The translations under genes were made by a program, and so were the position numbers. This document shows, one piece after another, positions 25,843 through 55,916 of a stretch of 64,000 nucleotides of DNA. How positions within the stretch are numbered: position 1 is the first letter of the stretch; every line of letters starts with the position of its first letter. The notes beneath the pieces were generated by a model. That model had not been told where the DNA came from. It did not search any database and was given only the letters and a program-made list of their open reading frames with translations. The stretch covers positions 5,022,001-5,086,000 of the forward strand of contig NZ_CP042806.1 of NCBI RefSeq assembly GCF_008000815.1, read 5' to 3'. This stretch comes from Terriglobus albidus (lineage in GTDB: Bacteria; Acidobacteriota; Terriglobia; Terriglobales; Acidobacteriaceae).

Positions 25843-26307
25843 ATGCTTCCATCCAGCGGGATCGATCTCATCGACAAGAAAATACTCCAGGAACTCAACT
25901 CCGATGCACGCATCCCGTTCGCAGAGTTGGGCCGGCGAGTCGGTCTCTCTCCCTCTGCAGCTGCCGAACGCGTCCGCCAGCTTGAGAGCCTTGAACTCAT
26001 CAGGGGCTACCGCGCAGAGATCAACCTTCAAGCGCTCGGATTCTCGATCACAGCATTTGTGCGGCTTACCTGCGACGGGAACCATTACAGACCCTTCCTC
26101 AAATTCCTGCCCACTCTCGACGCGGTACAGGAATGCCATCACCTGACCGGAGGCGATGCTTTCCTCCTGAAGATAGTCCTCTCTTCAGTCGAACAACTGG
26201 AAGACTTGATCGAGAAGCTGCTTCCGTATGGAAATCCGACGACCAGCATGGTGCTCTCCACGCCGCTGGAGCGGAAGCAGGATTCCCGACTTTTGAGCAA
26301 CCTCTAG
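25843..26307 (+). CDS. Lrp/AsnC family transcriptional regulator of the hut operon
   Basis: A 154-residue protein. The N-terminal HTH (residues 8-60) reads LIDKKILQELNSDARIPFAELGRRVGLSPSAAAERVRQLESLELIRGYRAEIN, typical of AsnC-type domains. The C-terminal RAM domain contains HHLTGGDAFLLKIVLSSVEQLEDLIEKLLPYG. It is divergent from hutH, with a palindrome between them, so it probably senses histidine or an intermediate and controls hut. The TAG stop codon is formed by the left edge of a terminal-inverted-repeat element (26305-26353), so the original 3' end may have been altered. Confidence 0.88.
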   Translation: MLPSSGIDLIDKKILQELNSDARIPFAELGRRVGLSPSAAAERVRQLESLELIRGYRAEINLQALGFSITAFVRLTCDGNHYRPFLKFLPTLDAVQECHHLTGGDAFLLKIVLSSVEQLEDLIEKLLPYGNPTTSMVLSTPLERKQDSRLLSNL

Positions 26308-26353
26308 GGCATTTTTCCTGTTGCTGGGGTATCCCGGACAGGAAAAGGCTCTA
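26305..26353. mobile_element. Deletion derivative of the TA-flanked MITE-like element
   Basis: Forty-nine bases beginning TAGGGCATTTTTCCTGTT and ending ACAGGAAAAGGCTCTA. They correspond to the left 33 bases and right inverted repeat of the full elements at 52936-53052 and 55391-55506; the middle, including CTGGGGTATCCCGG, matches the left arm of the 55391 copy. Folded as RNA it is a strong hairpin, so it may now end the Lrp transcript. Confidence 0.6.
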
Positions 26354-33843: not shown

Positions 33844-34182
33844 TCGCCCTCACACCACTGTCAACCGGAAAGTTCTAAATCATTCTAAATTCCCGGTAGG
33901 GCTTAGCTCCGCCCCGCCCACCCTAGCGTTGCGAGGGTGGGGCACCCGGGCGGTATTGATCTCCACAGGGTGCGCTCTATGAACGATGGACGAAGGACCG
34001 AAACATCGTGAACACGGCTACGGGCATTACGCAGGATCTCGATGCGCTCGTCAAGCTCGTTACAAAATGGTTTCCAAATGGAGTTGGGGAAAAGCCTGTC
34101 GGGCACTGGCCGGTTGGGTAGAAACGGAAAGCCCCATTCTGCGGAATGGGGCTTTCCGTTCACTATGAACTATTACTACGTA
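33844..34182. other. Intergenic region with hairpins and a degraded gene end
   Basis: About 340 bases. CCCACCCT and AGGGTGGG near 33919-33942 form one hairpin of the kind seen in other intergenic blocks. TTACGCAGGATCTCGAT at 34027-34043 repeats exactly at 34220-34236 inside the GH5-like gene, and the minus-strand reading here (ERIEILRNARSR) echoes that gene's C-terminus (REIEILRNTARK), suggesting the remains of a duplicated 3' end. The terminator at 34123-34160 is listed separately. Confidence 0.45.
34123..34160. terminator. Strong hairpin terminator after the GH5-like gene
   Basis: AACGGAAAGCCCCATTC (34123-34139) and GAATGGGGCTTTCCGTT (34144-34160) form a perfect 17-bp stem with a 4-base loop. 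It lies 22 bases past the stop of the minus-strand glycosidase and ends its transcript. Confidence 0.85.
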
Positions 34183-52935: not shown

Positions 52936-53052
52936 TAGAGCATTTTCCCTGTTGGTATAGAGTAGGGCTTCCGCATCTACGGGCGTTTTCCGCAATGAAA
53001 ACGCCGCTGCACAGCCCTTTTCGGGGTACCCAGCAAAAGGGAAAATGCTCTA
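52936..53052. mobile_element. MITE-like element, full copy 1 (117 bp)
   Basis: It begins TAGAGCATTTTCCCTG and ends GGGAAAATGCTCTA, an almost perfect terminal inverted repeat with TA at each outer edge. In the centre GGCGTTTTC and GAAAACGCC form a second hairpin. Read in reverse it is about 85-90% identical to 55391-55506. It lies between divergent genes (DUF457 and the hypothetical at 53078). There is no coding capacity. TA-flanked ends suggest mobilisation by an IS630/Tc1-mariner-type transposase, which is not in this window. Confidence 0.8.
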
Positions 53053-53077: not shown

Positions 53078-53518
53078 ATGCATCCGTTTCCATCCACCCA
53101 CGAGGAGATTGCGGCCTTCGTGTCGGCATTCGAAGCCGGCACGCTTCCGAAGGAATGCTGGACGCATGCCGCCCATATCCTTAGCGGTGCATGGTATGTC
53201 CATGCCCTCGGTCCGGAAGCAGCACTCGCCGAGATGAGGCGGCGCATCCGTGCCTACAACGAATCCGTGGGCACACAAAACACCGATACCAGCGGATATC
53301 ACGAGACGATTACGGTCTTCTGGATCAGGATATTGGCAGCGGAACTCGGCCGGCGTCCTGAGGCAACACGCGCTGCCTTCGTCACCGAGGCGGTTGAACA
53401 CTTTGGCCGGCAGCGCGATATCCTGACGCGCTATTACAGTTTCAACGTTGTGAAATCGACCGAGGCCCGCCGCATGTGGATCGAGCCTGATCTGATGACG
53501 ATTGGCGCGAGCAGCTAA
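53078..53518 (+). CDS. Conserved hypothetical protein
   Basis: A 146-residue soluble protein. It reads EIAAFVSAFEAGTLPKECWTHAAHILSGAWYVHALGPEAALAEMRRRIRAYNESVGTQNTDTSGYHETITVFWIRIL. The pattern WTHAAHL ... YN...G..N....GYHET.T.FW recurs in a widespread uncharacterised family as far as I recall; the conserved His/Trp/Glu could form a metal or active site. No domain name can be given safely. GAGGTGAGAGG lies about 9 bases upstream of the ATG, just beyond the MITE, so the element may carry or separate its promoter. Confidence 0.65.
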   Translation: MHPFPSTHEEIAAFVSAFEAGTLPKECWTHAAHILSGAWYVHALGPEAALAEMRRRIRAYNESVGTQNTDTSGYHETITVFWIRILAAELGRRPEATRAAFVTEAVEHFGRQRDILTRYYSFNVVKSTEARRMWIEPDLMTIGASS

Positions 53519-53839: not shown

Positions 53840-55222
53840 CTAAGGCAGAGCGGTTGCCAGCGAAGCCTTGGGCAGCCGCGATTTGCTGGGCTTTTCCTTC
53901 GTCTTCGGCTCGGGCATGTAGTTCTTGTAGATGCTGATGTGGAAGCAGGCCTGCTGGAACTCCTCTTCCACGTCGATCTTGCCTTCCTGCACCAGGGGCA
54001 ACAGGTACGCACGCAGCCAGGCAATCTCTGTCATAGACAGACCGTGCTTGGCCAGATCGACCGCCTGGCCAGTCAGGTGAGGCGAAGCGGTATCTCCCTC
54101 CGCCGGGGCGGCGTTGCCGTTGGTGCGCAGCAGGCGCTGCTGGAACTCCACGGTACGGACGGCTGAGTTTACCTGCAGGGGGCCGTGAAAGCGCTCATAG
54201 TGTGCGCGGCCAAGGTCATTCAAGAACTTCACCGCCCAGGGGCGGGCATACCGTCTGTCTGCTTCCAGACGGTCATCGACCTGCATCACTTTGTTATCGG
54301 GCAGCGCGATGAGCTGTTTGGCTTTGCGCAGACGCACAAGGTCCGCATCATCCTGCACGCGTTCCAGACCGTAACGGTCGGCGACGATATTCTGACGCAC
54401 CAGAATGGCATGCGACCCCAGCAGCGGCGCTGGGACGATCAGACGGCCGCGCCGGAAGGTCAGCTTCGGCTGAGGCAGCGCTGCGGCGGGACTCTCCTCG
54501 ACAAGCTCGGTACGCTTCACGGCAAGCACCGGTGGGGCCGGCAGTTCTGAGGCCGCTCTCTCTTCGATTGCAGGCTTGCGAGCAGATTCGGTTTTCGCCG
54601 GAGTCAGCTTCGGGCGCTCGGCAGGGCCAACCGCCGGCTCGGCAGGCTGCGACTCTTCAGCATCCTCGGTCTGCGAAACATGCACCACCGGCGCCGGCGC
54701 CTCGGCCTTGGGAGGCAGGTGTGTGGTCTTTTCCGGCTCAGGGGCTTCAGTTTCCGCAGGTGGATGCTTCTGTTCCAGTGACTTTCGCTGCTGGGCTGCC
54801 TTCAGGAAATCTTCGGTTGTTGCCTTCTGTCCGTCATCTTTTGCCGGAGCTGCGGGCTTCGCTGAAGCAGCCGGAACAGAAGCCGTCGCCACAGGCTTGT
54901 GGACAGGTTTTGCAACCGGGGATGGAGACGGCGCGTCGTCGGCGACGACCTCGTGGTGGTCTCTCAGCCAGGCGTGGACACGTTCTGCCGCCGCCGCGGC
55001 AGCAGCGCGATTCCCAGCTTCGTCAACAGGAGAGTGGCCGGTGCGTGTCGCCGGAGCAACGGCCTTCGGTTTTGCGGTAGCGGATGCAGACGGACGGGTG
55101 GTCGAGCGTACTGCGGGCGATCCCGCAGCGGGCTTTTTTCCCGGCTTCTTACTCGTGGGCTGCGCCGGCAATTGACCGGCGACAGCAGCCACGAGTAAAA
55201 ACACCCATCCAAGGCGACGCAT
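53840..55222 (-). CDS. Secreted DUF5715 (peptidase M15-like fold) protein with long low-complexity region
   Basis: A 460-residue protein with a signal peptide (MRRLGWVFLLVAAVAGQLPAQ). Residues 22-250 are Ala/Pro/Lys/Glu-rich and disordered. The C-terminal 190 residues carry DUF5715: RRYARPWAVKFLNDLGRAHYERFHGPLQVNSAVRTVEFQQRLLRTNGNA, SPHLTGQAVDLAKHGLSMTEIAWLR and CFHISIYKNY. The S.H..G.A.D and H.s pattern resembles D-Ala-D-Ala carboxypeptidases of the M15/LAS group, so a cell-wall role is likely. The frame is open to 55606, but ATG 55222 is the natural start. It is read away from the cytochrome gene, which starts 160 bases off. Confidence 0.82.
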   Translation of the reverse strand: MRRLGWVFLLVAAVAGQLPAQPTSKKPGKKPAAGSPAVRSTTRPSASATAKPKAVAPATRTGHSPVDEAGNRAAAAAAAERVHAWLRDHHEVVADDAPSPSPVAKPVHKPVATASVPAASAKPAAPAKDDGQKATTEDFLKAAQQRKSLEQKHPPAETEAPEPEKTTHLPPKAEAPAPVVHVSQTEDAEESQPAEPAVGPAERPKLTPAKTESARKPAIEERAASELPAPPVLAVKRTELVEESPAAALPQPKLTFRRGRLIVPAPLLGSHAILVRQNIVADRYGLERVQDDADLVRLRKAKQLIALPDNKVMQVDDRLEADRRYARPWAVKFLNDLGRAHYERFHGPLQVNSAVRTVEFQQRLLRTNGNAAPAEGDTASPHLTGQAVDLAKHGLSMTEIAWLRAYLLPLVQEGKIDVEEEFQQACFHISIYKNYMPEPKTKEKPSKSRLPKASLATALP

Positions 55223-55382
55223 ACACACAACTAAGAAGCCCGCGTCAGGGGCCAGAGCACTTTTAACCCTACCCCCGTCTCGGTAACGCAAAAAGTAACC
55301 AGAAGGATTCTGTGTAGGAATCAGTAAACACCGCCGCGCGAAGAGTTCGCCTCCCCTGCCGTCTCCGCTACGATGAAGAAGC

Positions 55383-55916
55383 ATGCGCATTAGAGCATTT
55401 TCCCTGTTTCTGGGTAACCCGAAAGTGACGTGCAGCGGCGTTTTCATTGCGGAAAACGCCCATAGATGCGGAAACCCTACTCTACACCTGCAGGGAAAAT
55501 GCTCTACGATCTCCAGGGTCTCCTCCGCCACCTGTGCGAGCCTGTTGCTGGCTCTGACCGCCGGCCTCAGCGGCTGTGACAAGCCAATGACTCCGGAAGA
55601 CGTCACCTACAAGAACACCGGTAATCTCTATATCGACCGCGTCCAGCCCATCCTGCAGACCCGCTGCTACCGCTGTCACGCCGGCCTGAACCACGAGAGC
55701 GGCCTTCGGGTCGACAGCCGCGCCTACATGCTGAAGGGCGGCAAACATGGCACGTCGCTGGTTCCCGGCGATCCGGAAAAGAGCCTCATGATCAAGCTGG
55801 TGCGGCACGAGGGGCCTAAGGACGATCCTATGCCCATGCCGAACCGTCGTGGCAAGCTTCCGGAACAGGAGATCCGTGATCTGGAGCGCTGGGTCAAAGA
55901 AGGCGCGTTGGAATAA
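55383..55916 (+). CDS. Cytochrome c (Planctomycete type) lipoprotein with MITE in its signal sequence
   Basis: A 177-residue reading. The mature part is clear: VQPILQTRCYRCHAGLNHESGLRVDSRAYMLKGGKHGTSLVPGDPEKSLMIKLV ... PMPMPNRRGKLPEQEIRDLERWVKEGALE, a PSCyt1-type haem c domain with one CxxCH. It follows a lipobox LSGC at residues 62-65. Between the first three codons and the hydrophobic core lie 38 codons (residues 4-41) that come entirely from a MITE-like element. Removing it restores MRI-TISRVSSATCASLLL and a standard lipoprotein signal. As it stands, export may be impaired; no alternative ATG exists downstream within the signal. Electron carrier role inferred. Confidence 0.8.
   Translation: MRIRAFSLFLGNPKVTCSGVFIAENAHRCGNPTLHLQGKCSTISRVSSATCASLLLALTAGLSGCDKPMTPEDVTYKNTGNLYIDRVQPILQTRCYRCHAGLNHESGLRVDSRAYMLKGGKHGTSLVPGDPEKSLMIKLVRHEGPKDDPMPMPNRRGKLPEQEIRDLERWVKEGALE
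55391..55506. mobile_element. MITE-like element, full copy 2 (116 bp), inside a coding region
   Basis: It begins TAGAGCATTTTCCCTG and ends CAGGGAAAATGCTCTA, a perfect 16-base terminal inverted repeat, with TA at both edges (apparent target duplication). GGCGTTTTC/GAAAACGCC makes the inner hairpin. Net insertion is 114 bases (the element minus one TA), a multiple of three, with no stop codon in the cytochrome frame. It is in opposite orientation to the copy at 52936-53052. Confidence 0.85.

Follow-up and report, generated by a model that had tools for sequence, protein, structure and literature searches.

A MITE-like element in the signal peptide of a Terriglobus cytochrome c lipoprotein gene, and its probable trimming in two related lineages

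In-frame fusions of MITEs with protein genes, and parts of signal peptides made by MITEs, are already in print for RPE and for RU-2/YPO1552. In Yersinia, YPO1552 is an RU-2/YPAL fusion in which the element forms residues 1-30 (Delihas 2007; PMC2759123, PMC2229807). The RPE are small palindromic repeats of about 150 bp, with terminal inverted repeats (TIRs) of 12 bp, that have entered protein genes without breaking the frame; of the first 44, close to half were located in genes (PMC10969869, PMC2229807). The 107-bp Correia/NEMIS element has TIRs of 24 bp, TA ends with a duplication, and open frames that are fused to genes (PMC2229807), and RUP of Streptococcus pneumoniae, with about 107 bp, TIRs, TA ends and more than 100 copies, is closed by stops in each of its six frames and resembles IS630-Spn1 at its ends (PMC2229807, PMC3049150). 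Finally, QMITE1/2 of Coxiella extend neighbouring genes or supply their stop, two rows of the published Table 2 being marked '(STOP)' (PMC5896051).

Here we describe a 116-bp element, with ends TAGAGCATTTTCCC, that lies within the leader of a cytochrome c lipoprotein gene of Terriglobus albidus, in a 64,000-nucleotide stretch of DNA (the window; Table 1) from a genome of 6,405,582 bp assembled as a single contig (G000). The Yersinia case concerns another element, whereas here a native leader is interrupted and relatives carry two apparently trimmed forms that keep the element end only. The locus is like RPE in the in-frame insertion into a protein gene and unlike it in the TIR length of 16 bp and in the siting of the family, a rough gene caller having placed 0/38 copies within genes. 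Correia/NEMIS, likened by description, is similar in size, in the presence of TIRs, in TA and in fused frames, but its TIRs measure 24 bp against 16 here. RUP differs in its closed frames, since three of six frames are open in our hand-read family consensus, and in its IS partner, none having been found here at 17 transposase loci of the own genome. QMITE1/2 are again other elements, and the siting at stop codons seen here is enriched across the family. What is added to these systems is the family itself, a pair of scars in the leader of a single gene, and the stop-codon enrichment; among the matches listed (titles and abstracts), the open-licence literature on Terriglobus or Acidobacteria MITEs, or on MITEs in signal peptides, gave no description of the 116-bp family.

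Table 1. Features discussed in the text, in window coordinates
Feature	Position	Strand	Basis or remark
ORF, 177 aa, PSCyt1 cytochrome c lipoprotein, 38 codons element-derived	55383..55916	+	ORF reading and domain match
MITE-like element, 116 bp including both terminal TAs	55391..55506	+	sequence and family copies
Left terminal inverted repeat with TA; found too in G008 and G001 leaders	55391..55406	+	
Right terminal inverted repeat with TA	55491..55506	-	
CCTGTTTCTGG, element side of short direct repeat (family version CCTGTTGCTGG); G008 scar junction inside	55403..55413	+	
CCTGTTGCTGG, leader side of direct repeat, within hydrophobic core	55541..55551	+	11-nt match to family consensus
Lipobox Cys codon, residue 65	55575..55577	+	
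CYRCH haem-binding motif (presumed)	55665..55679	+	read from sequence and translation
Second full copy in window, common to G001 and G010	52936..53052	-	
Left-end remnant of family, 34 nt	26305..26338	+	

The first-pass annotation of this DNA had proposed a MITE-like element inserted in frame in the leader, with the gene reading through it, and both points hold. The element stands directly after codon 3 and has TA at both ends, its two arms are complementary at 16/16 positions, and the ORF runs across it without a stop, for a net gain of 114 bp or 38 codons. Perfect 16-nt inverted repeats within 200 bp were absent from three mononucleotide-shuffled windows; the unshuffled sequence contains that of the element and two more, short-spaced palindromes near 34123 and 57498. 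As RNA the element folds at -46.5 kcal/mol against a mean of -28.5 (z -5.0), better than 200/200 shuffles. The product matches PF07635 PSCyt1 (E 3.8e-13), contains a CYRCH that we take to be the haem-binding motif, and keeps its LSGC lipobox. In lipoprotein signal peptides the lipobox Cys is expected at about residue 15-35; the Cys65 of the window gene and of its G010 orthologue falls outside this range, and Cys19 (G008) and Cys21 (G001) fall inside it. The divergent neighbour (53840-55372, minus strand) encodes a DUF5715 protein (PF18979, E 3.7e-27).

A search of 19 genomes of the genus with the mature protein gave a match in 18, with four close orthologues besides the window gene (87-98% amino acid identity), namely those of G010 (L031) and G008 (L032), both metagenome assemblies, of G001, which is Terriglobus albidus DSM 26559 (L033, same contig), and of G018. 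In G010 the element occupies the identical site, in frame, with 4/116 differences from the window copy, and G000 and G010 share a right flank of about 40 nt (the TISRVSSATCAS stretch) that is absent from the short-leader forms. The leaders of G008 (19 aa, MRIRAFSLLLALTAGLSGC) and G001 (21 aa, MRIRAFSLLLGVPLTVGLSGC) each contain 23 exact nucleotides from the left end of the element, encoding RAFSLLL; in 300 mononucleotide shuffles per leader the longest chance match to the family end was 9 nt for G008 and 11 nt for G001. By eye, the match in G001 continues with one mismatch to a CCG present in some copies. The G008 junction, where element meets leader, lies inside CCTGTTGCTGG, a direct repeat common to the left end of the family and the native hydrophobic core, although at 11 nt this repeat just equals the best match among 300 shuffles of the joined leader. 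The deletion junctions of G008 and G001, as read from the two leaders, seem to differ. G018 has a different short leader of 21 aa (MRPALLWGGALLSFAALLAGC) in which the longest element match is 6 nt, and its genome has zero matches to the element family. The short-leader orthologues that had been anticipated thus exist. The predicted empty site, ATGCGCATTACGATC, is found in 0/4 of the close orthologues, and the before/after reading of this signal peptide is only partly right, a clean record of that kind not being supported. Because the leaders of G008 and G001 still contain 23 exact nucleotides of the element's left end, they are better taken to show the state that followed a deletion than the one that preceded the insertion.

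A phylogeny built on the locus with its flanking DNA, 3.2-5.7 kb being compared per pair, joins G010 with G008 and then G000, and leaves G001 and G018 outside, with node supports of 1.000; 78 informative sites favour G010 with G008 against 22 and 14 for the alternatives, the last being the 14/114 that would pair G000 with G010. The scar-bearing G008 and G001 are therefore not sisters, and since the simplest history given this placement is one insertion followed by two deletions, we propose the following order of events. In the ancestor shared by the Terriglobus-group genomes G000, G010, G008 and G001, a non-autonomous, TA-targeting MITE would have entered the leader of the cytochrome c lipoprotein gene at the TA of ATGCGCAT-TA-CG. 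As the net length of 114 bp and the phase of insertion would have kept the frame open, the gene would have gained 38 codons, and the full element would simply have been retained in G000 and G010. In the lineages of G008 and G001, separate in-frame internal deletions would have removed most of the element together with some of the former n-region, so that the remaining leader has 19 or 21 residues and R-A-F-S-L-L-L provides its n-region Arg and opens its hydrophobic core; the contribution to the G001 leader probably reaches slightly beyond these residues, and the G008 deletion may have run through the short direct repeat CCTGTTGCTGG. We consider this history likely, judging from the leader sequences and the tree. 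It has to assume two deletions, with the junctions of G010 and G008 coming from metagenome assemblies, and its ancestral leader of 27 aa is reconstructed from the sequence on either side of the element in the filled gene, while the outgroup G018 has 21 aa, like G001. On its likeliest reading, then, the locus offers a close-relative case in which a MITE entered a signal peptide in frame and was then trimmed twice to leave a transposon end as host coding sequence, and it opens to test what share of an export signal can come from a mobile element. A broader suggestion, which we make tentatively and hold to be less probable than not, is that the left end of the MITE, reading R-A-F-S-L-L-L-G-I-P in one phase, may be a ready-made signal-peptide piece, so that insertion with internal deletion may be a repeatable route to a working export signal, here fixed twice in one gene.

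The alternative that survives best reverses this order. An end-containing short leader, produced by an earlier insertion, would be the older state, and G000 and G010 would have regained the full element by conversion or by a new insertion. The short form does occur in G001, the outermost of the four, with a leader length equal to that of the G018 outgroup, and the few differences between the elements of G000 and G010 are below the level of the gene's silent sites (pS 0.143). The right flank common to G000 and G010 is, however, something that conversion with another copy would not supply, and we regard a regain as unlikely.

Slightly less likely still is that the window gene is dying, its long leader no longer exporting the protein and its reading frame surviving by chance. 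The displaced lipobox Cys, the predicted hairpin at the start and the element codons, which are without sign of protein-level constraint (3 nonsynonymous and 0 synonymous differences between G000 and G010, too few to judge), would all suit such a gene. Yet the mature part is strongly constrained between the same two genomes, with 11 synonymous and 3 nonsynonymous differences (pS 0.143, pN 0.012), and the hydrophobic core beside the lipobox is of the usual strength, its best 9-residue mean being 2.4 and 2.8 in the two genes with the element against 2.3-2.5 in those without. Because pN is so low relative to pS, the cytochrome gene appears to be in use. Codons 42-65 differ at 8/72 bases between G000 and G010, the element itself at fewer than silent sites would give.

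Under the proposed insertion the Cys would have shifted from residue 27 in the reconstructed ancestor (19-21 in the short leaders) to 65, and the long leader may make export weaker or slower. In 200-nt folds, opening the region from -18 to +15 takes 19.1 and 19.3 kcal/mol in the genes with the element against 9.3, 10.5 and 10.6 in those without, which would predict lower translation from the start-adjacent hairpin; in 90-nt folds the cost is the same in all five genes (10.5-12.0). The deletions may then have relieved both the translation and the export losses. Translation could instead begin at the GTG of codon 15 (55425-55427) inside the element, an in-frame codon that G010 retains, but this we think very improbable, as the conservation of the ATG at 55383 and of the sequence upstream of it extends to G018, and the leader, with 50 residues ahead of the Cys, would still be long. 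Least credible of all is the version of the first-pass annotation, in which the window lineage acquired the element recently and its relatives have empty sites, for although short leaders do occur, the same insertion in G010 already contradicts it, the short leaders of G008 and G001 contain the element end, and none of the four close orthologues has the predicted empty site.

The reading of the element as a mobile one, made in the first-pass annotation, is supported. The window genome has at least 41 family matches (40 scored among 324 first-look candidates), and 13 places in it match TAGAGCATTTTCC N60-90 GGAAAATGCTCTA exactly, that is, with both 13-nt ends, against 0 for the reversed control. 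In 724 kb of G000 (G000:C1:4622001-5346000) there are 44 hits, 38 of which cover at least 101/116 positions. Across the genus 5/19 genomes match: G000, G001, G008 and G010 with 266-415 candidates each, and G017 with 2 weak family matches. In a 300-genome sample of the taxonomic family 32 genomes match, in 11/79 genera, three of which have matches limited to stretches of 21-28 nt. A plasmid collection searched with the consensus gave 0 matches at E 0.01, and a gathering-level Rfam scan of the window also gave 0. A pair at 26305/27284, considered as a long sister element, was dropped when only its left site proved to extend into the element, for 34 nt.

To compare filled and empty sites between G000 and G001, 60 hits were tried (44 from G000, 16 from G001), of which 20 could be placed and 9 had a near-empty counterpart. 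A single TA was present at five of these nine, the filled copy having TA at each of its ends in three cases and one changed end in two; the remaining four comparisons were diverged, truncated or ended in TG. The family targets TA, as had been supposed from the TA at both edges of the leader copy. Short (116 bp) and without a transposase gene, with TIRs, many dispersed copies and a target-site duplication, the element has the features of a MITE, and with three open frames of six its occasional in-frame survival is to be expected. At one shared site about 35 nt of the left end remain in G001 (G001:C55:44023-44056) where G000 has about 92 positions (G000:C1:5008576-5008666), and decay of this kind, sparing the left end, may be recurrent. 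Copies also occur head to tail, spaced about 115 bp apart, at G001:C38:28162-28507, G001:C38:5274-5619 and G000:C1:2884157-2884385, the last pair overlapping by 2 bp as if one had inserted into the TA at the other's end.

A profile search of the window genome for a possible autonomous partner returned 2 DDE_3 and 15 DDE_Tnp_1 loci, and a further 10 DDE_Tnp_1_2 hits that scored under the curated cut-off coincide with 10 of the 15. A TIR scan allowing up to 3 mismatches found no matching end pair at these 17 loci: 14 had no site, L143 contained a normal copy of the element, and L140 and L152 had one site each, with one and three mismatches respectively. Neither DDE_3 locus of this genome carries the TIR, and thus the shared ends of an IS630-derived MITE were not found there. 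Ten near-identical copies of an IS (L140-L149, G000), each about 1.29 kb long and containing an open frame of 361 aa, were considered as mobiliser and rejected, their ends being unrelated to the element.

The copies are enriched on stop codons. We surveyed 50 copies of at least 101 positions in the 724 kb of G000 (L069-L088, the window and L116-L128) and 220 kb of G001 (L059-L062 and L109-L115 in G001:C55), and kept the 76 ends whose alignment is complete to the final base, a filter that excludes an in-gene copy of G001 with TG ends and is blind to the window copy, which just 3 codons precede. A coding ORF enters 17 of the 76 ends (13 in G000, 4 in G001), and all 17 terminate at the element's own TAG; at 24 further loci with 34 intact ends, four coding ORFs enter and all four stop on the TAG. 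In three cases, judged by eye, the empty site has its own stop at the same point. Of the 38 G000 copies, 17 sit at a stop codon, whereas stop codons make up 8.9% of all stop-plus-intergenic TA sites; the difference (binomial P 6.7e-9) comes from a post hoc test that relies on a rough gene caller (561 genes) and weights all such TA sites equally. Because the element begins with TAG, insertion at a stop codon is cheap, and this siting suggests a simple reason why such an element can multiply into the hundreds with little harm to genes.

Synteny with G018 was too patchy for a census of in-gene copies (about 67 kb in pieces of more than 500 bp over 480 kb), so codon scores and G001 were used. The codon score flagged 7/38 copies as possible read-through, and the caller that found none in a gene misplaced the window copy before its gene. 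In-gene copies look exceptional, and random in-gene insertions have probably been purged. The neighbouring gene provides a further in-gene copy, and with it a clean in-frame pair with and without the element: in G001 (L061:13348-13902) a small conserved gene of 184 aa contains a full in-frame copy that ends in TG, not TA, while its window counterpart (53078-53518) has 146 aa and, like those of G010 and G018, is without the insert.
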